DNA from: a virus
DNA: 22,356 nucleotides
Virus record (IMG/VR): IMGVR_UViG_3300042554_002262
Location: 1-22,356 of that record
Strand: one strand, 5' to 3'
Position numbers and translations under genes: made by a program. The first letter of the stretch is position 1, and the number at the start of each line of letters is the position of its first letter. The notes under the pieces are model-generated. The model saw only the letters and a program-made list of their open reading frames with translations. It was not told the DNA's origin and did no database searches. This document shows, piece by piece, positions 1 to 22,062 of the stretch.

Positions 1-3000
1 GTATATAAACGAAGAGCTTATTCCCGCTGGATCAACTTGACGATCTTTGTATCTTATAAGTTCCCAGCCTGATTTGTTATCTTGATTGTTGTATGTATAA
101 AGACTGCCGCCTCCATTTATAATATTTGAATCTTTGTTAACACCAACTGCCATGATTCCATCGACCAAACTGATACTGGATCCAAAATTGTCCCCTGTAT
201 CTAGATTTGGTCCAACAAGTTTTTGTGTAAATGCAAATACAGCCGGGTTGTCAATTGATTCGTAAGGATTTTCTAATAGATCATAAATGTACGCAGCACC
301 AGATTCAGAAACCACATCTACCAGTAGTGTGCTATTGCTGTCGAATGTGGTAGCTGAAAATGTTGCGTCAAAGGTTATAGGAATGGTAATGTCAGCACCT
401 TCACTGCCCACTGCCAATACTCCATATGCCTGCGACAATCCCAGTGCTGTCCCAAATCGTTCTCCTATATTATTAGGATGTTTGATAATCTGTGTTTTTT
501 TGTAAATTTCTATTCCAAGATCAGATAGAGCAGTTCCGATACTACCAGGTTTGATATCGAGCTTGTCGTTTGCTACTGCAACATCACTGTTGATTCGCAA
601 TTTTCCTTGATATTTTTCGGCAGAGACTCCGGGTACGTTGGCATTATTAATTGCTGATACCACATTGTCTAGTGTAGGACCGGTCAGCTGAATGTTCCTA
701 TCGTTTATTACCAGTGTGTGACCGGCAGTCATAGTTGGATTGATTTTGGAGCCAGTGACTTGTCCGTATACTCTTCCTACATTTACGTACCGTGTAATTA
801 GACCTGAACTATAATTAATTTCAGAATAGTAAGGACTGCTAACATATAAATTACATCCTGTACCGCACATGGCCAACGATGTACCAAATTTTTGCCCGGT
901 GGTACCGATGTCCGATGCATCAAAAACTTGGTCTAACAAAAATTGATTGGTTTCTACCCTTAACTTTTGTCCTCCGATTGGAGTAGCAAATCCAGGAAAT
1001 AGAACAGCGTTTAATGTTCCGGATGGGCGATACCAGTCTGTTCCCTCAATTAACACAGTGTTATTAAGTAGTACTCTATACACATCATTGAAATTGTCTG
1101 GGCAGATAAATGTTCCAGAAAAACCATCTGTGGTAAATTCTGTTATTGTTCTATGATAAACACTTACTGTGCCTTCGTTCGCTGTTCCGTTTAACGTTTT
1201 GGTGTTTGCACCAACTGCAATAACCGAACTGTCTCGATTTGCGGCTAGAGAACAACCAAAATTTGTATCAGCTGCACCACTTAGCGAATCAATTAGTTTA
1301 TAATAAGCAGTTCGTCTAAGAACATCAAATCTTTCAAAAATAGTTGGTGCAGTTCCAAAAGTTAAATTTGTAATTGTTCCTTTACTTGAAACTGTAATAG
1401 TTATGTCGTTAGCTACCGAACCTCCGAGGCTTGTGCCAGGTATGGTTAGTATATCCCCATTACTATATCCAGAACCGCCATTGATTCTTATAACATTTGT
1501 ATAGACACCAGCATTGTTAACAATAACAGTAAATTTAGCACCAGATCCTGATCCGCCAGTGGCACTAAGATTAGTATATGTCAGCGTCCCGCCCCCACTA
1601 ACTCCAGTGCCTGACCGTGTAAACGAAATAATGCCGTTCGATGCCTGTGCAATAGTATAATCCACCGTAGGAACATACTCAGAGGATCTTAAAACTGCAA
1701 ACACTACAAGGTCTGTTGGATCTTGTACGGCTGCTGACAAAGTAAACACATTGCTCGACCCGTCGCCTTCAAACGATTGCGTATCTTCTGCTCTGGTTGT
1801 CACTGCATAACAAAAGACCTTGTTTGCGCCTGGTGCACCAACATAAAGATAATTACCGTCTCTGCTCATTGCAAGCGACTGTCCAAATCTATCATTGGAT
1901 ACCCCAGATGCATCGGTTAATATCTGAATCAATACACCATCTTTATAAACGTAAACATAACCGCTGTTTGAATTACTGTCTGGAGCACCTACTGCAAAAT
2001 ATCCAGATCCATTAGCAATGGCTTTACCAAAACCGCTTAGATTATTACTGTTTCCGTACAGGAACGAACTAGGTACCCATGAGTTTGCGCTTGCACGACC
2101 GTATATGGCAGCTTGCCCAGTTCCGGATCCTGGTGCCCCAACGTAAAGCAACTGTCCGGTATTAGGATCTAGACTGACAGTTTGTCCAAAGAAGTCGTTG
2201 CCTGATAATTTACTTGGGTCTGGTTCAACCTTGACCGAATACTTCCACGGATCAATCTTGTTGTATACTCCCCAATTTTGATTGCTGTCTAGGTTGTTTA
2301 CCCAAATTTTATCATTTGGGATCCAGCCGGCCACTGGCCTGACTGTTTCTACATCTTTTAAATAATCAATTTTACTAGATGTTAGTCTAAATAAAATACC
2401 CACGCCAGCGAAGGCCTGTGTATCTTTCATCTGCTGCAGATTTTGATACAGTCGAATATAAAATCTTGTACTGTCAATGATACTGTCAACTTTATAAACA
2501 CCATCAAATTGTGGTTCAAAGTTTTTTATAACTATCAAATCATCAACAGCTAGTCCGTGTTCTCTATCAAAGATGACTTCAACTAAATCATCAATGTTGT
2601 ATCGTAATCCAAAAATATAACCATTTACTAAGCTGGCGCGGTACACGTTCCAATTTTTGTCAAAATCTCTAGCTACCCAGATTTTATAACCAATACCAAT
2701 ATTATTAACAATTGTTGTCAATGTTTCATAATCGTTTAAATTAAATATGGTTGCATCAATGTCATCAAGATTTACAAAGCCTGCTACCGGAAGAGGCTTA
2801 AAGGTATCTTTTTCGTCTAAACTTTTTGTTCGTACTATACGAGCAGAATATTCACCTGATGATTTAAACACATTGGTATTATCAAAGGCCAGTACATCTG
2901 GTTCCTTTGTTGTTGTTTGGTCAAGTAGTTGAAATGCAGTAGGATTGCTGCTAAAGTCTGTTTCGTTTAGCTCAAATTCTACAAATTTGTTTATGTCAGT

Positions 3001-6000
3001 GGCGCCATATTCGCCAACGCGAACAGCCCAGTTTTCGTAGAAATTGATATCTGTATCTAAATTTCCAAAGATGGCTCCTTGTAATGCATTTAATGCATTT
3101 ACAGTTCCTTTTTGCTTAATAAATCCTTGATAGAATTTACTTTGTGTAGTTCTATCAATTCCAAGATTAGTAAAATATTCTCTGTTTCTAAATCCTATTA
3201 GTCCATTGCTAAACAATTGTAAATCTTCATTTATTGGTTGGTTATCAATGTCGTAAAAGTTCGTGCCTTGTGCTGCATTGGTAGCAAAATTGTTGATAAC
3301 GCCAGATTTTAATTCTGACGAAGGAATCAATTGCCAGCTGCTGGTCTGAAATTGTTCTGTTGCTGTAATGTTTTGTATCGCAGTGTAGAATCTAAATTTA
3401 TACTTTACTATGGACCCTTTTAAATAATCTTTACCAGATTCCCATTCGTCAATTATATCACTGCTGTAAATAAATCCTGGCAATTCTAAACTACCATTCC
3501 AGTTTGCAGTTTTAGCCCCAACCAGTTTGAGTCTGTACTGTCTATTACCTAGTTCTGGCACGTAAATAATATCATTAAAAACAGTAATGTTATCTAATAT
3601 CAGAAGATGCTCGTATTGTACTAAATCCAATTCCGCGAATCCGACAGTTTGATCTGCATTGGCGGTAAAAGTGAATACATTACTTTCTCTGTTTATTGAA
3701 AAATTATTTTTAACAATTGGTTTAAAATTTATATCAAGCACTCTACTTGAATAAGGTGTATTTAGAATTTCGTCCACTGCAGACGAAGAGTCAAAAACTT
3801 TTAAGGTTGTAGACACCGGGCTTAATACTATTACGCTTCCGGGCTTCCATCCTTGGCTGGACCAATGCAAAAATTCTTTGGCACTTAAAATCCAATCTTT
3901 TTGTTCCGCTAAATCTGTGTCTCTGTCAACAAAAATAAATCCTTGTGCCAACAGATAACGCTGGTAGCTGACCAAGAAATCTACCACTTGTTGTTTTGTA
4001 TTAAATTCGAATCCGTAAGGAACTGTATACTTTGCTTTCTTGAAGTCTTTGTAGATTGTTCCGCGTTGATTGCCGGATGTGATAGTGTAGGCATTGTTGT
4101 TGACTTGGCTAGGAATAATAAAGAAGTAAGGATTTGTTAGATCGTATCCGCTTACTACATATCCTGATGTGCTTTTTTCAACAATAACTGCACTATAAGT
4201 TATTTTGTTAACCGGACTGCCTTTGTATAATTCAATTCTATAGTTTTCTTCTGGCACTATAACACTGTCGCTGATGCTACTTGGACTGCTTTGTTCAGCC
4301 AGCAGCTCAATGAATTTTTTGTCAGTGTAGCCAGCCATTTTGTAGGCCAATTGTACATCCAATGCCGCAAGGTTATCCTTGATCAATTCAGATGCATCAG
4401 CAATACCTAGATTTTTAACATAATCTCTAATCCAGTTCAAGTAGCCAGAATTTCTCTCCACAGTGACACCATTATTGTAGCCCTGAACCAATAAGGCTGT
4501 AGGTGTTAAATGCTGTCCTGTAGTGGCTGTTTCAAATTGTGCTGTGACTGCGTTTCTAGTATAATTCTGTGTGTTAGCCAATAGAGCAAAATACTTGGCT
4601 GGTTTGGCTAAAGCTAGGGCCAGTTGCATTGCAAAAGCAAATTCGCTGCTGCGTCGCCATGCTGCTTCCACCGGTCCGATGTCTCCTACCGCAAAATTTA
4701 CATTTGCCTTGCTGCTATCAAAGTCGGCCACAAGAATTTTTTCTGGGCTAATTAATTCCCCATTTTCGTCAACAGGAACATATTGTGCAAGATTTGGTCG
4801 TTGATATCTTGAATCGAACCCAGCACGATCGCCAGCATGTATATAACCAAGACTTAAGTCGCTCCACAACAGCCCGTTGCCTCCGGTATATGGGGCAGGT
4901 CCGTATCTGTTGTTCCAATAGCTGGGCTTTTCGCTAAATCCCAACATCTCCCAAGGATGTGTATGAGGACGATCGGTATCATAAAAATATCGATAAATGC
5001 TGCGCCAAGATCCTGGTAAAGTTTCCCCATTCACTACATCTCTAAATCGTTTATAATTCCAAGTAAAAGGATCCGAAGCTTTAAACGTGTTGTTAGTTGA
5101 GTAATCTAATCTATTGGTTCCAATCCAAGACAGAAACCCTTGGCTTAAAATTTGATTAAACTCTATTAGAGAATAATCTGTTGGTCTGAACTTGCCTGGC
5201 AAATAATCATGAATATTGAAAATATTGACATCGTATTGAACTTTGATATTATTGTAAATTCTGCGTTCTAATTCCAATAATAAATTGTCTCTAAAATCTC
5301 CAAACGCCGGCGTTATACTACCGTCGTGTCCCTGTATTACTGTAATTGACTCTCTGTAGGTATCATCTACGTAAATTTCAGGATAAAACTTAGGATGCAT
5401 ACCCATCTTGGTAGGAGTTTCAGGCACATAGCAACCGTCGGTGGTGCTGTATTCTACAATATCAATTTTGTCGCCATACAGGAGACCAAAACTATCATTT
5501 ATAGTAATAGCCGGTCTGTCTTGTCTAAAATAAAAATCTCTATCTTTAATTAATAGTGTTTTTGATGTGACGTTGTTGATTGTTCGGGTAAGGTATACAA
5601 GAACAGCTCGATTGCTGATCACTTTGTCATTGAAAATAGTTGTTATTTCATAACTTGTAATATCTGGATCTAAAACTGTATAAGTAGGAATTACAGTTTT
5701 TCCTAGGTCACCATACGGGAACATATCACTATAGAACCACGGAAACGAATCATTTTTCACCAAATTGATATGCAGCATTATTGCATCAACACTGCCTGCA
5801 ATATCATCACGATTTAAATCTAAATTGCCGGCCAATTCTAAAAACTTAATTTTAAATTTCGCATATTCTCTATTTGCCAATTTCAATGCATTTACGAAAT
5901 TCATTGTAGGATGATTTAAAAACAATCCAGCATACACCACAGGAGCACTGTGCTGTAAAACACTGCCTCCTTTGTTCATGTATTGAATATCTCTTAGATT

Positions 6001-9000
6001 GCTATTGCCCGGAACTTTACCAACAATGTCTAAACTGTTATTTTTTAGAGTAATCAAATGATTACGCATTTGGCCCAGTGTTAACATTTCCAGATTAGTA
6101 TTGAGGCTGTTAACGTCTAGATTTAATGGCACTTCGTAAAAAGCATTTGGTGACACTAAATCTTTATTAAAGATACTTACAAAAATAACATCATCTTTTA
6201 CAATCAAATCAGGATTGACTAATACAGCAAATTGATCAACTACTTTTGTAACAACAAAATTACCAATATCTAAGATTGAGTTATTGACTGTGACCTTGAT
6301 GTTGGGATTAATTATACTTGTGTCTGGAATGTTGTCTATAGGGAATAAATTGGTTTCGCCATCGTAAGCGAACTGATAATTCTGATATTGATGACTAAAA
6401 TCTCTGTTGATAGTCCAGATGTTCAATCGTTGGCAAGAAGCAGCATCAATATTTTTTTGTAAATATCCAGCATTAACCGTCACTGTTTCGATGCCGCCGC
6501 CACCAATTAAAAAATCAAACGACTGTGTGTCGTAGTCGTTGGTAAACTGTATGTCTCCTTGGCTAACGAAATTTTTATAACTTAACGGAAATCCAATTAC
6601 ACTATCGTTGTTTCCGATTCCTCTTTTGTAGGAAAATATTTTTGTTCCTTGAAATGTGGTACCTGGATATACCGAACTGTCAGTAAAACTAACTCCATCG
6701 TCGTTGATTACATCAAACAAAGGCTCTTGATTGTTGTATGTTTTTTCTTGCGACGCTTTCCATGATGTTCCGTTATAATGCCAATGTTTACCGCCGTTGC
6801 TGCCAGACAAAATAAGCACAGTGTTTCCCGCAACAATTGTGGTATCGTCTGTTTCCTCGATGAAAGCTTTATAGAGAAGAGGATCCGGGGCTTCAGTTGT
6901 GAGCTCTATAGAAAACTTATAAATTTTATTTCTAACATCATTATTGATATCATTTGAAAAAATTACTCTATCACCAGCAGTAAGAGTCAAGTCACCTATT
7001 GTAAGTGTTTTTGTGTCAACACACACTACACCTTGTACTTGTATAAATGCATTAGATATCGTAGTATCTAGTATGTCTACTGGCTGCTTGGCTTCCGCAC
7101 CAAAATTGTACAATTGTAAATCAGCATCAAATTCAATAATTGGTCTGCTGGCTCTTAAATTTTGATTAAAGATAGCATCAATGTTATTATAATCTGCAGT
7201 TTTTTGAATGACATCCATATGGAACCAACGATTGGCTCTTGACCAAGGATTTCTATCTATACTTGATCGCTTGATTGTCATATAATCTTGCACCGCAGGT
7301 TGCAAGTAAGCATTTATTAATGCACCTGTGCCAGACCCGCCTTTGAGACTCACAGGGTTGGTTGGTAAAACAGAATAGTTTCCTCGATCTTTGATTTTAA
7401 AAGTTTTAACTGGACCTGATGTTGGTGGGGCAACGGTTATAACAGGTGCAGACAAATAACCCGTGCCTGCCGAATCAACAATAATATTTGTGACTACCCC
7501 GTTGGTAATTACAGCATGTGCAAATGCGCTGGTGCCTGCTGCTGGTGCCGACGCAATACTTACGATAGGAGCACTGGTATATCCTGATCCACCATCAATG
7601 ATATCAATGGAAGTAATTGCTCCAGTAATACTATTAATTGTTGCTCCAGCTTTAGCTGTGTTTTCCACAATAGACGTCACTACCGCAGTAGCATCTGCTG
7701 TTCTAACCCCTCCAGCAAATGTGAGGCGATCGCCTACAATGTAGTCTTTGCCAGCTTCAACAATAGAACTGGTATTGATAGCTTCTATAGATACCAACTC
7801 AGAATCTGCAACCAATACTATTGAGGTGCCTACGCCTTCAACATAATAGTTTTTAGATCTCCATTCCGCCGGCGCACTTGCATCAAATCTAACTTTGAGT
7901 CCGTTGGTAAAACTAATACCATTTGGACTTGTGTAATTGATCTGACCTAATATCTCTAACGACGGATCAATTGTGCTTGAGGTTGGTTCAACTAATTTGA
8001 TGATTCCAACCGCGTTATTTTCTTCGCCACTTTGATAGAACAATGTGTCTGATGGCGCAGTTATGTAAGGAACCGCAGTTAGTAAATTCAATCTAGCGTA
8101 AAATTCTCTACCAGCATATTGTGCACCTGCTTTGATTCTTACTTTTCTTTCGTTAGGAACAGTAGATTTTGGAAACAGAATGATTCGTTCGACATCATTT
8201 TCGTCTCGTTCTATTTTTATAGTAAAAATACTTGTTCTTTGTTCAAATGGGATTAAATTATTTTGATCAAAATATGCAACACCGTCCTCGACTCGAGAAG
8301 TATCAACCCAGTAGGCATCGTCAATATATTGTGGATTTACAAACACTACCGAAGCGTTTTCTATATATCGTAGTGTGCCGTCAATTCCTCCTAGATCTTC
8401 ATTGACATCTTGAGGATTAGCCCCTAGTAATTGTGCAAAGGATAAATTGGTTGCATAGTCAACATCGTCTACAACCGGCATTGATGTCCAACGATCTTGT
8501 GCATTATTTGCCGGAACCGTAAATCTGACTGTGCCCACAGATTGTCCGTTATTAGAAACACCTAACACCTGTCTTGTGTCTAAATTTGGCATTTCTGGAT
8601 CAATGCCGTTTACTGTGGGTTTTGACTGAATATAAAATTCATTGCCAGGTTCGTTGACATTAAAATCGTACACCCCACCTCTAGACAATGTGATAGTAGG
8701 ATTAGGAGTACGACCATAACCGGTAAATTCGTATGTGCCTGTTGTGGCATTATATATAACATCAAAACTGTCTTCCAATGGCACACCTACAGCTGATATC
8801 ACTACTGGGTCTGGACCATTGTCTAACCAGTAGTACTGACTAAAGTTAACAAACTTGTCTAAATCTATTTTAGGATTGTAGGTATAATATTCGTTATCAA
8901 ATAAACGACTGTGATTGTTTGTTAGTCCACCATAATATCTAATTTTATTAACAATGTCAGTGTAGGTGGTAGCAAATTCTATTTCATTTGTGACATCGTT

Positions 9001-9231
9001 TTTTAAAACCAACGAAGGCTCAAGTTGATAATTTTGTCTGTCTGTTGTTGTTTCTTCAATATAACTGTCAGTTGTTTTGTACGACGGAGCTAGTTTTCTT
9101 CCTATATATCCATTGATTTTTTTTAACGCAGGTTCGCTAACTAACTGGTCTAATGTTGCGTTTAGAAATTTTTTGTTTGGTTCAGTCTGAAAAATTTCTG
9201 GAAGAAATTGGTGTGTCTTAATAACGGCCAT
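1..9231 (-). CDS. Giant baseplate-associated structural protein, gp7 position, 3' end beyond window
   Basis: One reading frame stays open from an ATG at 9231-9229 to position 1: 3077 codons with no stop, and the C terminus lies outside the window. AGGA (9238-9241) sits 6 bases before the start. The protein begins MAVIKTHQFLPEIFQ, followed by a segment like the start of large structural proteins of marine T4-like phages (recalled, not searched). Residues about 540-610 hold glycine-rich repeats of the type GGSGYTSAPIVSI. Residues 2344-3047 hold seven FG-GAP-like repeats (core FGxSLAxxxxGxxLxVGAP) with other modules between some of them. It directly follows gp6, the place of gp7 in T4, but T4 gp7 is only about 1030 residues. 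The likely role is a wedge or peripheral baseplate/adhesion protein of the virion. The gp7 equivalence is inferred from position only. I saw no signal peptide or membrane segment. Confidence 0.85.
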   Translation of the reverse strand, partial: MAVIKTHQFLPEIFQTEPNKKFLNATLDQLVSEPALKKINGYIGRKLAPSYKTTDSYIEETTTDRQNYQLEPSLVLKNDVTNEIEFATTYTDIVNKIRYYGGLTNNHSRLFDNEYYTYNPKIDLDKFVNFSQYYWLDNGPDPVVISAVGVPLEDSFDVIYNATTGTYEFTGYGRTPNPTITLSRGGVYDFNVNEPGNEFYIQSKPTVNGIDPEMPNLDTRQVLGVSNNGQSVGTVRFTVPANNAQDRWTSMPVVDDVDYATNLSFAQLLGANPQDVNEDLGGIDGTLRYIENASVVFVNPQYIDDAYWVDTSRVEDGVAYFDQNNLIPFEQRTSIFTIKIERDENDVERIILFPKSTVPNERKVRIKAGAQYAGREFYARLNLLTAVPYITAPSDTLFYQSGEENNAVGIIKLVEPTSSTIDPSLEILGQINYTSPNGISFTNGLKVRFDASAPAEWRSKNYYVEGVGTSIVLVADSELVSIEAINTSSIVEAGKDYIVGDRLTFAGGVRTADATAVVTSIVENTAKAGATINSITGAITSIDIIDGGSGYTSAPIVSIASAPAAGTSAFAHAVITNGVVTNIIVDSAGTGYLSAPVITVAPPTSGPVKTFKIKDRGNYSVLPTNPVSLKGGSGTGALINAYLQPAVQDYMTIKRSSIDRNPWSRANRWFHMDVIQKTADYNNIDAIFNQNLRASRPIIEFDADLQLYNFGAEAKQPVDILDTTISNAFIQVQGVVCVDTKTLTIGDLTLTAGDRVIFSNDINNDVRNKIYKFSIELTTEAPDPLLYKAFIEETDDTTIVAGNTVLILSGSNGGKHWHYNGTSWKASQEKTYNNQEPLFDVINDDGVSFTDSSVYPGTTFQGTKIFSYKRGIGNNDSVIGFPLSYKNFVSQGDIQFTNDYDTQSFDFLIGGGGIETVTVNAGYLQKNIDAASCQRLNIWTINRDFSHQYQNYQFAYDGETNLFPIDNIPDTSIINPNIKVTVNNSILDIGNFVVTKVVDQFAVLVNPDLIVKDDVIFVSIFNKDLVSPNAFYEVPLNLDVNSLNTNLEMLTLGQMRNHLITLKNNSLDIVGKVPGNSNLRDIQYMNKGGSVLQHSAPVVYAGLFLNHPTMNFVNALKLANREYAKFKIKFLELAGNLDLNRDDIAGSVDAIMLHINLVKNDSFPWFYSDMFPYGDLGKTVIPTYTVLDPDITSYEITTIFNDKVISNRAVLVYLTRTINNVTSKTLLIKDRDFYFRQDRPAITINDSFGLLYGDKIDIVEYSTTDGCYVPETPTKMGMHPKFYPEIYVDDTYRESITVIQGHDGSITPAFGDFRDNLLLELERRIYNNIKVQYDVNIFNIHDYLPGKFRPTDYSLIEFNQILSQGFLSWIGTNRLDYSTNNTFKASDPFTWNYKRFRDVVNGETLPGSWRSIYRYFYDTDRPHTHPWEMLGFSEKPSYWNNRYGPAPYTGGNGLLWSDLSLGYIHAGDRAGFDSRYQRPNLAQYVPVDENGELISPEKILVADFDSSKANVNFAVGDIGPVEAAWRRSSEFAFAMQLALALAKPAKYFALLANTQNYTRNAVTAQFETATTGQHLTPTALLVQGYNNGVTVERNSGYLNWIRDYVKNLGIADASELIKDNLAALDVQLAYKMAGYTDKKFIELLAEQSSPSSISDSVIVPEENYRIELYKGSPVNKITYSAVIVEKSTSGYVVSGYDLTNPYFFIIPSQVNNNAYTITSGNQRGTIYKDFKKAKYTVPYGFEFNTKQQVVDFLVSYQRYLLAQGFIFVDRDTDLAEQKDWILSAKEFLHWSSQGWKPGSVIVLSPVSTTLKVFDSSSAVDEILNTPYSSRVLDINFKPIVKNNFSINRESNVFTFTANADQTVGFAELDLVQYEHLLILDNITVFNDIIYVPELGNRQYRLKLVGAKTANWNGSLELPGFIYSSDIIDEWESGKDYLKGSIVKYKFRFYTAIQNITATEQFQTSSWQLIPSSELKSGVINNFATNAAQGTNFYDIDNQPINEDLQLFSNGLIGFRNREYFTNLGIDRTTQSKFYQGFIKQKGTVNALNALQGAIFGNLDTDINFYENWAVRVGEYGATDINKFVEFELNETDFSSNPTAFQLLDQTTTKEPDVLAFDNTNVFKSSGEYSARIVRTKSLDEKDTFKPLPVAGFVNLDDIDATIFNLNDYETLTTIVNNIGIGYKIWVARDFDKNWNVYRASLVNGYIFGLRYNIDDLVEVIFDREHGLAVDDLIVIKNFEPQFDGVYKVDSIIDSTRFYIRLYQNLQQMKDTQAFAGVGILFRLTSSKIDYLKDVETVRPVAGWIPNDKIWVNNLDSNQNWGVYNKIDPWKYSVKVEPDPSKLSGNDFFGQTVSLDPNTGQLLYVGAPGSGTGQAAIYGRASANSWVPSSFLYGNSNNLSGFGKAIANGSGYFAVGAPDSNSNSGYVYVYKDGVLIQILTDASGVSNDRFGQSLAMSRDGNYLYVGAPGANKVFCYAVTTRAEDTQSFEGDGSSNVFTLSAAVQDPTDLVVFAVLRSSEYVPTVDYTIAQASNGIISFTRSGTGVSGGGTLTYTNLSATGGSGSGAKFTVIVNNAGVYTNVIRINGGSGYSNGDILTIPGTSLGGSVANDITITVSSKGTITNLTFGTAPTIFERFDVLRRTAYYKLIDSLSGAADTNFGCSLAANRDSSVIAVGANTKTLNGTANEGTVSVYHRTITEFTTDGFSGTFICPDNFNDVYRVLLNNTVLIEGTDWYRPSGTLNAVLFPGFATPIGGQKLRVETNQFLLDQVFDASDIGTTGQKFGTSLAMCGTGCNLYVSSPYYSEINYSSGLITRYVNVGRVYGQVTGSKINPTMTAGHTLVINDRNIQLTGPTLDNVVSAINNANVPGVSAEKYQGKLRINSDVAVANDKLDIKPGSIGTALSDLGIEIYKKTQIIKHPNNIGERFGTALGLSQAYGVLAVGSEGADITIPITFDATFSATTFDSNSTLLVDVVSESGAAYIYDLLENPYESIDNPAVFAFTQKLVGPNLDTGDNFGSSISLVDGIMAVGVNKDSNIINGGGSLYTYNNQDNKSGWELIRYKDRQVDPAGISSSFIY
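91..2202 (-). repeat. Seven FG-GAP-like repeats (candidate seven-bladed beta-propeller)
   Basis: Within the giant protein, seven segments share an FG...VGAP...Y-V/I-Y pattern typical of FG-GAP/integrin-alpha-type propeller blades. They lie at 2202-2101, 2040-1945, 1896-1807, 1269-1156, 897-787, 465-280 and 195-91 (residues about 2344-2377, 2398-2430, 2446-2475, 2655-2692, 2779-2815, 2923-2984 and 3013-3047). Examples are DRFGQSLAMSRDGNYLYVGA and GFGKAIANGSGYFAVGAPD. Blades 1 to 3 are close together; about 179, 86 and 107 residues separate blades 3/4, 4/5 and 5/6. The last repeats are degenerate, with VGAP becoming VGSE or VGVN. The classic calcium-binding DxDxDG loop is not evident. Such propellers usually mediate protein or glycan binding; that role here is inference. 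More blades could follow beyond position 1. Confidence 0.7.
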
Positions 9232-9242: not shown

Positions 9243-12200
9243 TTATGCTATTATATTGAGTTGTCCTGCTGTAATTGCGCTGATAATTTGTACATTGTCA
9301 ACTGTGGCAGCACTGACTAAAATTTCATTTGCTTCGGCATTGATCTGATATAAGGTACCAAAACTGGCCAATTCTGCTGCCGGGACGATCACAACGCTAC
9401 TGACATTAGGGCTTAGTGCAGAATGCAAATATGCACTAAGTTCACTAAAGTAAAAAGTTTCGCCAAATTCCCAGTTTGATATGTCAAAATAAGTGTTAAT
9501 TGCGGTAATCACCTGGCTCTTTACATCATTGTCACTAATATTGACATTTGGATTTTTAACAACTTTGAATGTTGCTCTCAAACTATCCTCGGCTTTGTTT
9601 CCAAATAATGGTTTAAATTTAGCAGGATTATAAATTATGCTGTCACTAATTGTTTTAAAGTTTTCAATTGATCCAAACTCTGTTCTCAATTCGTCGCTGG
9701 TTGGCGCCACAGGTTCCTGCACTCTATTTGTTGGATCTGTTATATGAGCGTAATATTGGTCACTGTAGCTTCTAGTGAGAATATAAAAATCTATTAGATT
9801 ATTAGGACTTGGGTCTATTCTTCGACTATTAGGAGCATTATGAGTGTATTGAAACATAAGATTCTGTCTACCAACTTTGGCAATATAATCGGTCAGTAAA
9901 GTTAGTGTTGCTCCGTTTGATCTAAAAAATTTATCTTCAGTGAAGGCATAAAATACCGTTGACGGTGGGTACAGAGTAATATTATTAATTACTTCTGTTT
10001 CTGTTGGATACGAAGACACGATGCTGGCTTGATCTACTGGGTCGTACTTTACAAAATTAAACTGATCTACGGCTCTAACAAAAAATACGAATTTATTTTC
10101 TGGGTTAGTGGTAGGTGCTACTAGATTGCTAAACAAATCAGGATCGTCAGGCACTTCATCTAGATTGTCATCTGGGAAAGTGACGTAGACTTTTCTATTG
10201 TCTTCGAATCCGTCAGACTCCACTACTCTGTTCCATATTCTATAAATTTGACTATAAAATATACTGTTTGAATTGTCGGGCTGAGTGTTTGTGCGTAAAA
10301 TCTTGATAGCATCTAGTCTTGTAGTTGCTGTTTTACTATCATACACTTTCACATCAGGGTCATAATAAAATCTAGTTTCTTTTGTGCTTTGGAAATAATA
10401 ATTTACTCCTCTACTGGTGACAGTGTATTCTTGATTGGCAAAGACAAATTTTAAAAACCAACTGTTGTCTAATCCAGTGCCCGATGTATTACCAGCATTA
10501 GTTAAACTAAAGACACCAGACCCTAGATTTGCTGCATCCACTATGGTCCATAATTTATTAACTACATCGTATCTCAGACCAAATGTCTTATAACTTAAAA
10601 TATTATTAATCACTTCAGTGGTCAATGCAGCTGACCAAGAATTGGCAAACACCGGAATAACTTGACTTATTTCTGCACCGGTAGGTACATTAACACTCAA
10701 AACTGCATTGCCCACACCAGGAGTTGGGTACGAAATTATACTGGCCCACAATGTGGTTCGTTGATTTTCTGTTTCTGGTGAACCTGTCTGCAATTGATTT
10801 TGTGCATCAAAATACTGTCCAGCTGGTGCATCAAATTGAACTAGAGCTCCTTGTGTCAGATAGATATAACTTGATGCCCCAAACGTGCCGGTGCTGCGGC
10901 CGCCGCTGAATGATGTACGAGACCATGTTCCTGTTGGGGTATATCGTGTTGCTGTTTTATAATACAGATGTCTGGTAGGAATTTTGGCAATTAACGGCAA
11001 AACTAAATTTTGCACTACAAAATTAACTTCGCTGCTGCTAGTAAATTGGAAAGTTTCTATTTCAGACGAATCTTCGCTATAGATAATTCCGTCTTCGGCA
11101 AAAATATTTGTACTAGAATATTTTCCGGTAGCATCAACTACATCTAAAAATCTACTGACTCCAGAACTGGATCTATTAACTGCTTTAATTTTTAATATAT
11201 TACTGAAAGTGGTAAAAGGTAAAACATTGTAGTCTTCACCAGTGACCATTCTGTTCTGCGTGTAGTACTGTTGTGGTGCTTTGGTTCTAATGTCTTCTAG
11301 TGTTTCTCTAGCCACAGCGTTAGTGACTGTGTATTGTAAACTTGCACGAATAGACAATGTTTCTGCGCGACCGGTTCTTCCTCGATAAGGAATCGAAACT
11401 GTCACAGCACTCATTTCTTCTGGTGTTATTTTGTAAGTTTGATTATTGCTTACTCTATAATATAGTCTAAAATTACCAGTTGGTATATTAGTAAATGATC
11501 CGTCTCCAAATACCAAATCAATTTGATCATTTGCTCTAGAACTGACACTGTATAAATTTCTGTCAGCAGTGTTGTTATAAATTACATTGATTCCGTTTAC
11601 TGCTGGTACCTGTGTCCACAATGTGGTTGGATTGCCAGCCGAGCTCAACGAGTACAGCCAAATATCAGTGTTATTAATATTGTCAAAATTGACATTAACT
11701 ATACGATTTGGTAAACTTTCTGTGATCGTAAAATCAAGATTTTTTAATTCGCCCTGTTTAAAGTAAAAAAAGTATCCGGTATTATTTGATCCGTTGCCTT
11801 GGTTATCGTTTCTGTAAAGAAAGTTAAACACACCGCTAGGAGCAGGATCTTTTTCATAGATAAAAGTTTTGTCAGCTGAAGTAGGGCTTATTATTTCAAA
11901 CGGGTATGTGACACCTGCAATACTAGCAGTGTACGGTTGTACTGGTATCAGACCATTTAACAGATCAATTGCGTATTCGTCGGTTTTTACTCCACTAAGA
12001 GTTTTAGTAGCACCAGGTTTACCAATGGCCTGTGTGCTCACTAGAGCTGCATTGAGTACTGTGGTAAACTGTTCTAGCCAGTTTTCGTTGGTACTATCGT
12101 TCCAATTAACTAATTGATTGCTTAAATTGGTACCTGTACTGTCGTATACGATTTCTGTTGTGCTGACATTTTGAAACTTAAGATATCCACCAGCCGGTAA

Positions 12201-12533
12201 ACTTCTTTTTGGATTATAGCTAACTAATTTTGCTAACTTTAGTATACTGTCTCTACGTTCGGCTGTATCTAAAAAATTCTCTCTAGCATTAAGATCTGTT
12301 CTAAAAGCCAAACTTTGTCCTAGAAACGCTATAAGATCTATAAGTGCAACATATTCAGAACTTTCAGTGAAATCGTTAAAATCTTCAGGATAATAAGTAC
12401 GCAAGTATTCAATCATGCTCTTGCGTAAAGTTTCAAAATCAAAGCTTTGGAAATCAGCTTCTCTAAAAGTCTGATAGATCTTAGTCCAGTCTTGCCGAGC
12501 TAATAAACTAGTTTGTCTTGTTGTAATCGCCAT
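9243..12533 (-). CDS. 6: Baseplate wedge protein gp6
   Basis: 1096 residues. The N terminus (RQDWTKIYQTFREADFQSF, then an acidic segment ending ALIDLIAFLGQSLAFRTDLN and ARENFLDTAERRDSILKLAK) is the conserved opening of T4-type gp6. A central segment around QQYYTQNRMVTGEDYNVLPF matches the conserved gp6/gpJ-like core. The C-terminal segment (residues about 990-1070, with INTYFDISNWEFGETFYFSE) resembles the conserved end shared with gpJ-type baseplate proteins. In T4, gp6 dimers join the six wedges into a ring around the hub and drive the baseplate shape change. This version is much longer than T4 gp6 (about 660 residues); the extra length appears to be interior. The ATG has AAGGT 7 bases upstream and its own late-promoter-like element. 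gp25 precedes it, as expected since gp25 and gp6 bind each other in the wedge. Confidence 0.9.
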   Translation of the reverse strand: MAITTRQTSLLARQDWTKIYQTFREADFQSFDFETLRKSMIEYLRTYYPEDFNDFTESSEYVALIDLIAFLGQSLAFRTDLNARENFLDTAERRDSILKLAKLVSYNPKRSLPAGGYLKFQNVSTTEIVYDSTGTNLSNQLVNWNDSTNENWLEQFTTVLNAALVSTQAIGKPGATKTLSGVKTDEYAIDLLNGLIPVQPYTASIAGVTYPFEIISPTSADKTFIYEKDPAPSGVFNFLYRNDNQGNGSNNTGYFFYFKQGELKNLDFTITESLPNRIVNVNFDNINNTDIWLYSLSSAGNPTTLWTQVPAVNGINVIYNNTADRNLYSVSSRANDQIDLVFGDGSFTNIPTGNFRLYYRVSNNQTYKITPEEMSAVTVSIPYRGRTGRAETLSIRASLQYTVTNAVARETLEDIRTKAPQQYYTQNRMVTGEDYNVLPFTTFSNILKIKAVNRSSSGVSRFLDVVDATGKYSSTNIFAEDGIIYSEDSSEIETFQFTSSSEVNFVVQNLVLPLIAKIPTRHLYYKTATRYTPTGTWSRTSFSGGRSTGTFGASSYIYLTQGALVQFDAPAGQYFDAQNQLQTGSPETENQRTTLWASIISYPTPGVGNAVLSVNVPTGAEISQVIPVFANSWSAALTTEVINNILSYKTFGLRYDVVNKLWTIVDAANLGSGVFSLTNAGNTSGTGLDNSWFLKFVFANQEYTVTSRGVNYYFQSTKETRFYYDPDVKVYDSKTATTRLDAIKILRTNTQPDNSNSIFYSQIYRIWNRVVESDGFEDNRKVYVTFPDDNLDEVPDDPDLFSNLVAPTTNPENKFVFFVRAVDQFNFVKYDPVDQASIVSSYPTETEVINNITLYPPSTVFYAFTEDKFFRSNGATLTLLTDYIAKVGRQNLMFQYTHNAPNSRRIDPSPNNLIDFYILTRSYSDQYYAHITDPTNRVQEPVAPTSDELRTEFGSIENFKTISDSIIYNPAKFKPLFGNKAEDSLRATFKVVKNPNVNISDNDVKSQVITAINTYFDISNWEFGETFYFSELSAYLHSALSPNVSSVVIVPAAELASFGTLYQINAEANEILVSAATVDNVQIISAITAGQLNIIA

Positions 12534-12579: not shown

Positions 12580-12960
12580 TTATGATACTGCAAGGTTATT
12601 GGTATTTGAATTAAATGTCAACAGCAGTTGTTCTGAATAATTCCCAGGTAAAAAAGTTAATTCTACTTGTATTTGCAGTCCGTGTTCAAATTCATCCAAA
12701 ATAACATTATTCACTTGTAGTCTTGGGTCATAGCTGACTATTCTTCTTACATCTTCTACGATAGTTGATTTTACATCAGCTGTTAACGGCTCGTATAGCA
12801 TGTTCCAGATTATGCTTCCAAAATCTGGATTCATTAGCTTTTGACCTTTACGTATACTAAAATGATTTATAAGGTCGCGTTTGACTAATTCAGCGTCAGT
12901 GAGGCGAAATTTTTTGACCTGATTTATTGTGCTAAAGCCTCTATATCTAGTGTTTGCCAT
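12580..12960 (-). CDS. 25: Baseplate wedge protein gp25
   Basis: 126 residues, close to T4 gp25 (132). It has the family layout: an N-terminal segment ending in a K/R-rich stretch, then RKGQKLMNPDFGSIIWNMLY followed by EPLT (the conserved NPDFG...EPL motif), a helix (ADVKSTIVEDVRRIVSYDPR), and a final beta region with VQVELTFLPG-like strands. Gp25 is the most conserved contractile-tail wedge protein, related to TssE of type VI secretion; it binds gp6 and initiates the sheath at the baseplate. No Shine-Dalgarno sequence is visible before the ATG. Instead an AATAAATA element ends 5 bases before it, which makes a leaderless transcript possible. The upstream gene ends 18 bases away, so read-through transcription is also likely. 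Confidence 0.92.
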   Translation of the reverse strand: MANTRYRGFSTINQVKKFRLTDAELVKRDLINHFSIRKGQKLMNPDFGSIIWNMLYEPLTADVKSTIVEDVRRIVSYDPRLQVNNVILDEFEHGLQIQVELTFLPGNYSEQLLLTFNSNTNNLAVS

Positions 12961-21177: not shown

Positions 21178-22062
21178 ATGAAACACAACTATCTAAACAA
21201 CCGCGATATTCTCAAAGAAATTCACAAAAGTAAAGCCACTTACTGTAGCTTTTTAACTACCGAAGACGGCGATTATGATTTAATTTTGCCTGGTATTGAC
21301 AAAATAAACAAAAAAAATATTGCAGCTGGTCGCAAGGCCAGGGCCGAACGTCTAGGACGAGCAGCCTACGACGAAGCACAATCCAATACTACTGTAAAGC
21401 TAAAATTGGATGACTTTGCTGTCAAACCTAGTAAAATCAAGGACACCGACATTGTATTTCGCATAATGACTTGGGAGCATGTGCCAATTGATGAAGCAAA
21501 AACTCGTAAAAGTCAAGAAAAGCTGTTAGACGATGATCCTGCAGTTATAACAGAATATGACGATGGTGTCGATGTGGCTGTTCCTGCAAAATATACCAAA
21601 TGCAATTTTCCGCCGTTTCAACATTACAAAGTCAACGAAGAAGGTGTGCCTTACTGTGTTGGCAAGAGTCACTGGCAAGGCGATTTGGACAAAGGTAAAT
21701 TCAGTCGCAATCACGGCACAATGACCAAAAAGCTTGCTCACATGTTTATGAAACTGTGTGAGCGTTATGCTACACGTAGCAATTGGCGTGGATACACTTA
21801 TAACGACGAAATGCGTAGCCAAGCATTATTACAACTTTCCCAGATAGGACTACAATTTGATGAAAGCAAATCACAAAATCCTTTTGCTTATTATACTGCT
21901 GCTATCACTAATTCCTTTACTCGAGTCCTTAACATTGAAAAGCGCAACCAGAATCTCAGAGATGATATTCTTGAAATGAACGGTCTAACTCCTAGCTATA
22001 CTAGACAAGGTATGGGGTCATGGGGCGGTAGTTCAACTTCAGGCGAATACACCGATGATTAA
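21178..22062 (+). CDS. 55: Late transcription sigma factor gp55
   Basis: 294 residues. The C-terminal half (about 180-275) reads like a minimal sigma region 2: KKLAHMFMKLCERYATRSNW, then YNDEMRSQALLQLSQIGLQF, NPFAYYTAAITNSFTRVLNI, and EKRNQNLRDDILEMNGL. The NPFAY(Y/F)T segment and the following basic EK(R/K)NQNLRDD stretch are typical of gp55 in T4-like phages. Gp55 replaces the host sigma factor on RNA polymerase and recognises the TATAAATA late promoter, working with gp33 and the gp45 clamp. The first 170 residues, opening MKHNYLNNRDILKEIHKSKA, are not in the 185-residue T4 protein, though similar openings occur in marine phage versions (recalled). The tail ends GGSSTSGEYTDD with no evident hydrophobic clamp-binding motif. 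AAGGA lies 5 bases before the ATG. Confidence 0.85.
   Translation: MKHNYLNNRDILKEIHKSKATYCSFLTTEDGDYDLILPGIDKINKKNIAAGRKARAERLGRAAYDEAQSNTTVKLKLDDFAVKPSKIKDTDIVFRIMTWEHVPIDEAKTRKSQEKLLDDDPAVITEYDDGVDVAVPAKYTKCNFPPFQHYKVNEEGVPYCVGKSHWQGDLDKGKFSRNHGTMTKKLAHMFMKLCERYATRSNWRGYTYNDEMRSQALLQLSQIGLQFDESKSQNPFAYYTAAITNSFTRVLNIEKRNQNLRDDILEMNGLTPSYTRQGMGSWGGSSTSGEYTDD

Follow-up and report, generated by a model that had tools for sequence, protein, structure and literature searches.

We analysed the virus record IMGVR_UViG_3300042554_002262 over its whole length of 22,356 bases (the window). Its minus strand encodes, from position 9231 to position 1, a giant virion-type protein of which 3077 residues are present; no stop codon is reached up to the window end and the 3' end is open. 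Sequence profiles and a predicted model make it very probable that this giant baseplate-region protein carries a closed, seven-bladed, calcium-loop-free propeller of the integrin-alpha type (Pfam family FG-GAP_2) as a self-contained insert in a short turn. The original prediction had read positions 91-2202 as seven FG-GAP repeats, a range that runs from the FG of blade 1 to the end of the Pfam match in blade 7. The modelled propeller with its closing strand covers about 88-2244 of the window. The source is an uncultured T4-related phage that is probably large, as relatives have contigs of up to 354 kb.

The repeats were searched with a loose motif consisting of FG, two residues, a small hydrophobic residue and [VIL][GS][ASV] 4-14 residues later. 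Exactly seven matches were found in the 3077 residues, at residues 2348, 2401, 2449, 2658, 2782, 2926 and 3016, all in the reported segment. When the segment was shuffled 2000 times, a mean of 0.13 and a maximum of 2 matches were obtained, and 2000 shuffles of the whole giant protein gave a mean of 0.30 and a maximum of 4. The exact VGAP was limited to blades 1-3, and the remaining blades have VGAN, VSSP, VGSE and VGVN. Since the motif was composed with the repeats already in view and, in its strict form, gave 2 to 7 units in 26 aligned relatives, the profile and model tests weigh more than this count. Those relatives (alignment A1) are 26 of 31 locus rows, near-identical rows and the long L047 having been dropped; a further alignment, A2, holds 20 of 29. 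With FG-GAP_2 (PF14312) the giant protein reached an E-value of 5.4e-14 and 52.5 bits at a cut-off of 23, which places it in this family, and no match to FG-GAP (PF01839, cut-off 22.1 bits) was found across the record at E 0.001. Blade 2 alone scored 15.5 bits with PF01839. When the blades were scanned singly, FG-GAP_2 was detected in five (1, 2, 3, 4 and 7), with scores above the cut-off for blades 3 and 7 only, and blades 5 and 6 gave no Pfam match. The seven copies of an FG...VGA-type pattern were thus confirmed by the motif count against shuffles, by FG-GAP_2 and by relatives that also have seven.

The calcium loop was suggested at the outset to have been lost. Of the 27 aligned sequences, 26 have no DxDxDG-like loop, and the window sequence is one of these. 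The sole match, in L038, lies between blades 5 and 6 inside a decoration. The absence therefore stands, and 'lost' is perhaps the wrong word because the blades belong to FG-GAP_2 and PF01839 gave no match at E 0.001. DxDxDG calcium loops in the later blades are a mark of the integrin alpha subunit, and on this point the phage protein falls outside that group.

The structure of residues 2300-3077 was predicted by AlphaFold2 from the 27-sequence alignment. The model had a mean predicted local distance difference test score (pLDDT) of 86.8 and a predicted template modelling score (pTM) of 0.87, and the only segment of three or more residues under pLDDT 50 lies in the insertion of blade 6. In a Foldseek search against the Protein Data Bank (PDB), the top 35 rows were all integrin alpha chains. 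With VIA-align, model residues 28-759 were matched to 9t3y_A (Z 39.7, 343 residues, root mean square deviation 2.7 A), and 6om1_C gave a Z of 38.9 over 354 residues; such matches span integrin residues 1-440. Because they cover the full integrin ring, the predicted ring is taken as closed. The model thus bears out the proposed integrin-alpha-type fold of seven four-stranded blades, with 15-21% identity to integrin in the structural alignments listed. A profile search of the PDB by sequence alone found integrin alpha-4 over blades 1-3 (E 5.8e-7). Behind it came an antibody chain at E 1.9e-4, an integrin alpha-L row at 0.0017 and, at weaker E, numerous further antibody chains. Only the two integrin alpha-4 rows were trusted, and the antibody chains behind them were regarded as noise. 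Among predicted viral proteins the best match was A0A6J5L8L4 of an uncultured Caudovirales phage (BFVD, E 3.7e-34, 24% identity), which is possibly the same giant protein. Several further viral matches were named FG-GAP proteins of giant eukaryotic viruses.

The blade count was followed beyond the window in relatives. L001, which matches the window at 99.76% over 16,231 bases and is the same phage species, extends the giant gene to 3,896 residues with seven blades and no eighth. In L030 (96% in the core) the open reading frame (ORF) is complete with 4,719 residues and again has seven blades. Past blade 7 the relatives continue into conserved non-propeller sequence, which is kept in propeller-less jumbo phages too. 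The count thus stays at seven with the 3' end in hand, and an artefact of the window edge was ruled out.

A less biased set of 64 loci was found with a query from the core of the giant protein and was scanned with a custom blade profile. All seven blades were present in 34 loci. Seven loci had one to six blades in ORFs that are cut short, 9 had none in ORFs that end ahead of the site, three (L051-L053) had four divergent blade matches and 11 distant ones (L054-L064) had none, with both flanks recognised in 9 of these. Among 84 non-identical sequences with both flanks, 60 had seven blades in order; seven matches were counted in 61, six in 6, four in 2 and none in 15. The fraction of 60/84 is inflated, as L072-L151 came from a search with the propeller-bearing alignment and are the best 80 of its 132 relatives. 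The 84 exclude identical sequences, those that lack the downstream flank, such as the window's own, and L149 and L151, which miss the core. That the repeats are a matter of chance, or an open-ended series and not a propeller, is very improbable: the failure of Pfam to find blades 5 and 6 fits such a reading, which is contradicted by the model with its PDB matches, by the shuffles and by the seven ordered blades in 60 of the 84 sequences.

Some relatives differ at the site. L051 and L052 have a divergent propeller at the same place (giant residues about 2126-2970) with a block of repeated units inside that looks helical by eye. On the contig IMGVR_UViG_3300047510_004105 (L037 / L151) the frame of the giant ends within blade 1 and seven blade matches are in another ORF; either the gene is interrupted or the sequence has an error. 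In named phages no relative of the propeller was found at 1e-5. At E up to 10 the search matched 177 records, the best 25 of which belong to one cyanophage species (E 0.2, query residues 216-350, from decoration 1 into blade 4).

The carrier of the propeller is the giant ORF itself (1..9231, minus strand, phrog_10938 E 8.7e-285), the C terminus of which is cut off here. Adjacent to it on the same strand lie the genes of a gp6-like baseplate wedge protein (9243..12533, phrog_10646 E 9.3e-304, phrog_219 E 5.2e-24) and a gp25-like baseplate wedge protein (12580..12960, PF04965 E 1.2e-9). A tblastn search with the core of the giant matched 58 phage records, every one under 60% identity. Core-homologous giants were found in PA5oct (gp355), RaK2, CBB (CBB_236), Munch, Atu_ph07, SCTP-2 and Phosso. 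In PA5oct, Atu_ph07, RaK2, Phosso and CBB the giant comes after a gene annotated as baseplate wedge, as in the window; in Munch and SCTP-2 the gene ahead is annotated as hypothetical. PA5oct gp355 carries the annotation note 'ESI-MS/MS'. CBB_236, the locus tag of which was matched to the giant orthologue, is listed among the structural proteins tabulated for CBB (PMC5259590). Its values there are 21 and 7.72, which were taken to be peptides and coverage. The main text of the RaK2 paper has no mention of gp070 or ORF070, nor has the available part of the Atu_ph07 paper of gp180. The suggestion of a virion-type protein beside baseplate genes held up, and from gene order and the mass spectrometry of propeller-less orthologues we infer that the protein is attached at the baseplate. 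The PHROG category of this family, 'head and packaging', is doubtful because the giant follows baseplate wedge genes.

Homology to T4 gp7 was looked for by profile, and no sequence relation was found. The giant gene stands directly after gp6, as gp7 does in T4, and this position alone agrees. With hhalign against one T4 sequence the probability was 0.2% and 0.4%. No gp7 entry was among the PDB matches of the N-terminal or core profiles, and one of these searches listed two weak chitinase chains.

The insertion site was investigated with an empty-site profile that joins the two flanks from 24 relatives with the propeller removed. It was run on 15 propeller-less giants and aligned straight across the junction in four of them, PA5oct (i-E 3.6e-20), Phosso (6e-19), Atu_ph07 (4.5e-19) and SCTP-2 (9.5e-13). 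In these four empty sites the W-x-V strand is joined to the second strand by a turn of a few residues. No FG-GAP propeller was found at the site in the six giants scanned (PA5oct, RaK2, Munch, Atu_ph07, SCTP-2 and Phosso). The simplest reading of these alignments is that the propeller was placed into a hairpin turn of the giant protein, to which a loss in the outgroups is the alternative.

The segment was mapped with strand ranges from DSSP of the model and our own strand lettering; all positions are on the minus strand. The first strand of the host hairpin (2257..2277, residues 2319-2325, NWGVYNK) was assigned by DSSP and aligned by the empty-site profile to DWAVAVV of PA5oct. The closing N-terminal strand follows at 2227..2244 (residues 2330-2335), with model residues 28 onward aligned to integrin residue 1; by analogy with integrin topology we presume it to be the outer strand of blade 7. 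Blade 1 (2056..2193, residues 2347-2392), blade 2 (1918..2034, residues 2400-2438), strands A-C of blade 3 (1795..1887, residues 2449-2479) and of blade 4 (1132..1260, residues 2658-2700) and strands A-C of blade 7 (88..186, residues 3016-3048) were each located by the model, the Pfam blade scan and the motif. For the two blades missed by Pfam, strands A-C of blade 5 (781..888, residues 2782-2817) and blade 6 with an insertion in its B-C loop (217..456, residues 2926-3005), the model, the motif and the custom profile were used. The D strands of blade 3 (1279..1308, residues 2642-2651), blade 4 (919..966, residues 2756-2771) and blade 5 (481..504, residues 2910-2917) were taken from the model. 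The second strand of the host hairpin (46..69, residues 3055-3062, GWELIRYK), which comes after the insertion, was located by the model and the empty-site profile.

Extra sequence is placed between strands C and D in blades 3, 4 and 5 and between B and C in blade 6. Decoration 1, in the C-D loop of blade 3 (1309..1794, residues 2480-2641), contains a GGSGY-type phage virion module (phrog_6005 E 7e-9) that is common to several phage virion families, and its length differs among relatives. Decoration 2 in blade 4 (967..1131, residues 2701-2755) and decoration 3 in blade 5 (505..780, residues 2818-2909) were seen in the model and had no family match above cut-off in Pfam and PHROG scans. We suspect a flagellin-IN-like pattern in decoration 3 and a common phage beta-sandwich in decorations 1 and 2, which no tool confirmed. 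Throughout the 60 seven-bladed sequences the decorations are at the same three places. The spacing of the blade-profile matches there has medians of 4 (blades 1-2), 5 (2-3) and 21 (6-7) and ranges over 81-286 (3-4), 70-89 (4-5) and 100-296 (5-6). Another GGSGY-type module at 7312-7734 of the window matches 24 PHROG families at E up to 1, including 'head closure Hc2', and annotations of this kind may have spread via the shared module.

Conservation was compared in three ways. Over 24 relatives picked for length from the 64, the regional median identity was 67-68% in the core, 51-60% in the blades and 39-52% in the decorations. Other peripheral parts before the propeller had medians of 50-58%, except for the N terminus with 73% and the core tail (1926-2050) with 66%. 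By this measure of sequence the blades are not unusually fast-evolving. Within the propeller (20 of 27 rows kept, under 85% identity) the mean pairwise identity was 0.44-0.55 in the strands, 0.41 in the B-C loops, 0.36 in the D-A loops and 0.39 with 22% gaps in decoration 1. The loops are thus modestly weaker than the strands and not hypervariable, and the sequences give no hypervariable face. Finally, 21 pairs were formed from the seven relatives with downstream DNA (L071 and L156-L161). The propeller was aligned over a median of 0.98 of its length, whereas the second gene downstream of the giant was aligned over a median of 0.41 with a minimum of 0.12. Two further downstream genes had medians of 1.00 (15 and 21 pairs) and are as conserved as the propeller or more. 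The variable second gene (L156 14940-18080 and its counterparts, 447-1095 residues) aligns pairwise in parts only. In the L156 copy Pfam found a glycine-rich domain, and the L071 copy had no match. The gene probably encodes the host-range fibre. The idea that the propeller is a receptor- or glycan-binding head was not supported in the form first proposed, as the propeller is kept near full length beside a gene that varies piecewise and its loops are modestly less conserved.

In integrins the C-D loops are on the bottom face of the propeller, where the chain ends also lie. Because the C-D loop decorations and the chain ends would share this face by the integrin convention, the top face is expected to be largely free. 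We propose that the propeller is closed by its own N-terminal strand, so that its ends would lie side by side and fit the hairpin turn with the carrier undisturbed. The carrier would hold it at the baseplate, and the phage-type beta-domains in the C-D loops of blades 3, 4 and 5 would sit on the face of the tether and leave the opposite face mostly free. The partner bound by this face may be a constant one: fibres or spikes of the phage itself, or else a common structure of the host surface that the baseplate meets on landing. Strain-specific recognition would be left to the separate variable, probably fibre, protein encoded downstream. A constant partner is favoured because of the three comparisons above. 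Such a conserved docking or gripping platform is the reading we lean to, with a confidence that falls a little short of even, and the explanation as a whole, identity and mechanism together, is an evenly balanced judgement.

A receptor- or glycan-binding head, in which the free face or the central pocket binds a sugar or protein of the host surface, is possible and less likely. It has precedents in phi11 RBP and, as speculation, phiKZ gp131C (PMC4901313). The fold is that of the ligand-binding integrin head, conservation within the blades is lowest in the D-A and B-C loops, and the giant has a CBM_5_12 match elsewhere, below its cut-off. Against these points, the propeller lacks the piecewise swapping of the variable downstream gene, the decorations recur at three fixed places in the 60 seven-bladed sequences, and the blade identities resemble those of the other peripheral parts of the giant. 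A passive spacer, in which a stable disc gives the wedge periphery its shape and has no ligand, we consider unlikely. The fairly even conservation and the constant blade count would agree with it, and the propeller is one among several beta-modules along the giant, with GGSGY-type modules at more than one site. Yet related jumbo phages build the same protein without a propeller, and the long-term keeping of all seven blades exceeds what a spacer apparently needs.

Several observations weigh against the inserted docking or gripping platform. The Foldseek template modelling scores were about 0.36 by query and up to 0.62 by target among the matches listed, with root mean square deviations of about 8-12 A for the better rows; these modest scores are presumably owed to the insertions. 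With the empty-site profile, the matches of L054, RaK2, Munch, L059, L060, L063 and L064 were confined to the junction or the part downstream of it, and none reached 30 bits. L062 gave no domain, and the listing did not extend to L055, L056 and L061. The assignment of the faces follows integrin topology and not the model coordinates. The loops toward the presumed free side are the least conserved blade parts (0.36-0.41), which is expected of a receptor-binding face too, and in the worst pair the propeller coverage was 0.23. Relatives without the propeller exist, and a structural role is not universal. The function of the propeller in the members that carry it is a prediction from sequence and model.

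Beyond the window end a second, distinct propeller of five blades was found in the C-terminal part of L030 (residues about 3,844-4,090, L030:18518-19279). A model of this part (model 2) was poor overall with a pLDDT of 60.9, and only its propeller residues 26-272 were used. The best structural match was E. coli YjiK (Z 23.9 over 227 residues), and the second propeller alone scored above the Pfam cut-offs of Lactonase and SGL. It is set, by eye, within a W..NTAY..N..Y module. Its relatives occur in 11 phage records, for the most part from phages of Roseobacter, Synechococcus and Lentibacter. With a simple pattern at least two units were detected in 20 of 71 sequences, many of the 71 being truncated. 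The five-bladed propeller is missing from L026, and its distribution is patchy. The phage of the window likely has this propeller beyond the window end. A rather speculative extension is that every baseplate wedge bears a fixed, integrin-like head for gripping, accompanied in some phages by the five-bladed propeller on the same chain, and that these act as a second-step clamp once the variable fibres have located the cell.

If the proposal is true, a widespread uncultured lineage of large phages has a conserved second-step adhesion device for a common host-surface structure. The inserted propeller is in itself a clear case of how a large functional head can be carried by a phage, as a self-closing propeller in the hairpin turn of an old structural protein, where propeller-less relatives have a short turn at the same place. 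Two ideas are also kept apart, as a propeller at the baseplate need not be the determinant of host range and piecewise variation is found here in another gene. The close likeness to the integrin head offers a model that can be tested for conserved adhesion at the baseplate or docking of fibres in large phages, a group in which few functions are known.

Other genes were noted in the window and its relatives. Divergent from the baseplate genes, a late-transcription sigma factor (phrog_12791 E 3.4e-79) is encoded at 21178-22062 on the plus strand. An array of radical-SAM/SPASM-like proteins was seen downstream of the tail genes in L071 (2083-11132) and L156-L161. In the L071 array 6 of the 7 scanned proteins match Pfam Radical_SAM at E 0.01, 4 of them above the cut-off, and homologues of at least two array proteins are present in all seven relatives. 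Genes beside the array look glycosyltransferase-like by eye and have no Pfam match.

Among known systems the closest in fold are the integrin alpha propellers (alphaM, alphaL and alphaV headpieces), which likewise have seven four-stranded FG-GAP blades and match over the full ring (Z 39.7). Integrin propellers may also hold domains inserted in loops, such as the alphaI domain. The phage propeller differs from them in having no calcium loops seen, other insertion positions, 15-21% identity, no leg domains found and a phage virion protein as carrier. For the 3077 residues Pfam gave FG-GAP_2 and CBM_5_12 below its cut-off and nothing else, integrin legs included, and in the C-terminal part of L030 only SGL and CBM_5_12 below their cut-offs.

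The nearest functional precedent is phiKZ gp131C (PDB 4GBF), which is reported as a propeller of seven blades on the periphery of a jumbo-phage baseplate, with an unproven role (PMC4901313). The phage propeller shares with it the seven blades and probably the position at the baseplate periphery. No sequence or profile similarity between the two was found: hhalign with the last 598 residues of gp131 (one sequence) gave a probability of 0.1%, and the one Pfam hint of gp131C is the RCC1-like PF25390, below cut-off. The phi11 RBP (Gp45) is reported as a five-bladed propeller borne on the baseplate with a proposed glycan or receptor role (PMC4901313). It is also a baseplate propeller, with five blades and as the trimeric receptor-binding protein of a siphophage. 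Kelch propellers are reported for CBB (PMC5259590).

Closer in sequence, the giants of PA5oct, RaK2, Munch, Atu_ph07, SCTP-2 and Phosso share the core protein and differ in having no FG-GAP propeller at the site. In Phosso (PV764938 48386-68852 and 92229-94508) 66 FG-GAP_2 matches were observed; those listed are in ORFs of 3702, 3182, 429 and 398 residues, possibly strings of propellers, and none is in the giant baseplate-region protein. Atu_ph07 gp320 ('hemagglutinin'), which carries FG-GAP_2, and H6WG31 of cyanophage S-TIM5 stand alone as small separate proteins of about 400 residues with a fold predicted to be common to them and the phage propeller. In the open-licence literature, searched by title and abstract start, no publication turned up that deals with an FG-GAP propeller as part of a phage baseplate protein. 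In conclusion, baseplate propellers such as phiKZ gp131C and stand-alone FG-GAP propellers of phages were known before; new is an integrin-type propeller inserted in the giant protein and kept across a large uncultured lineage.

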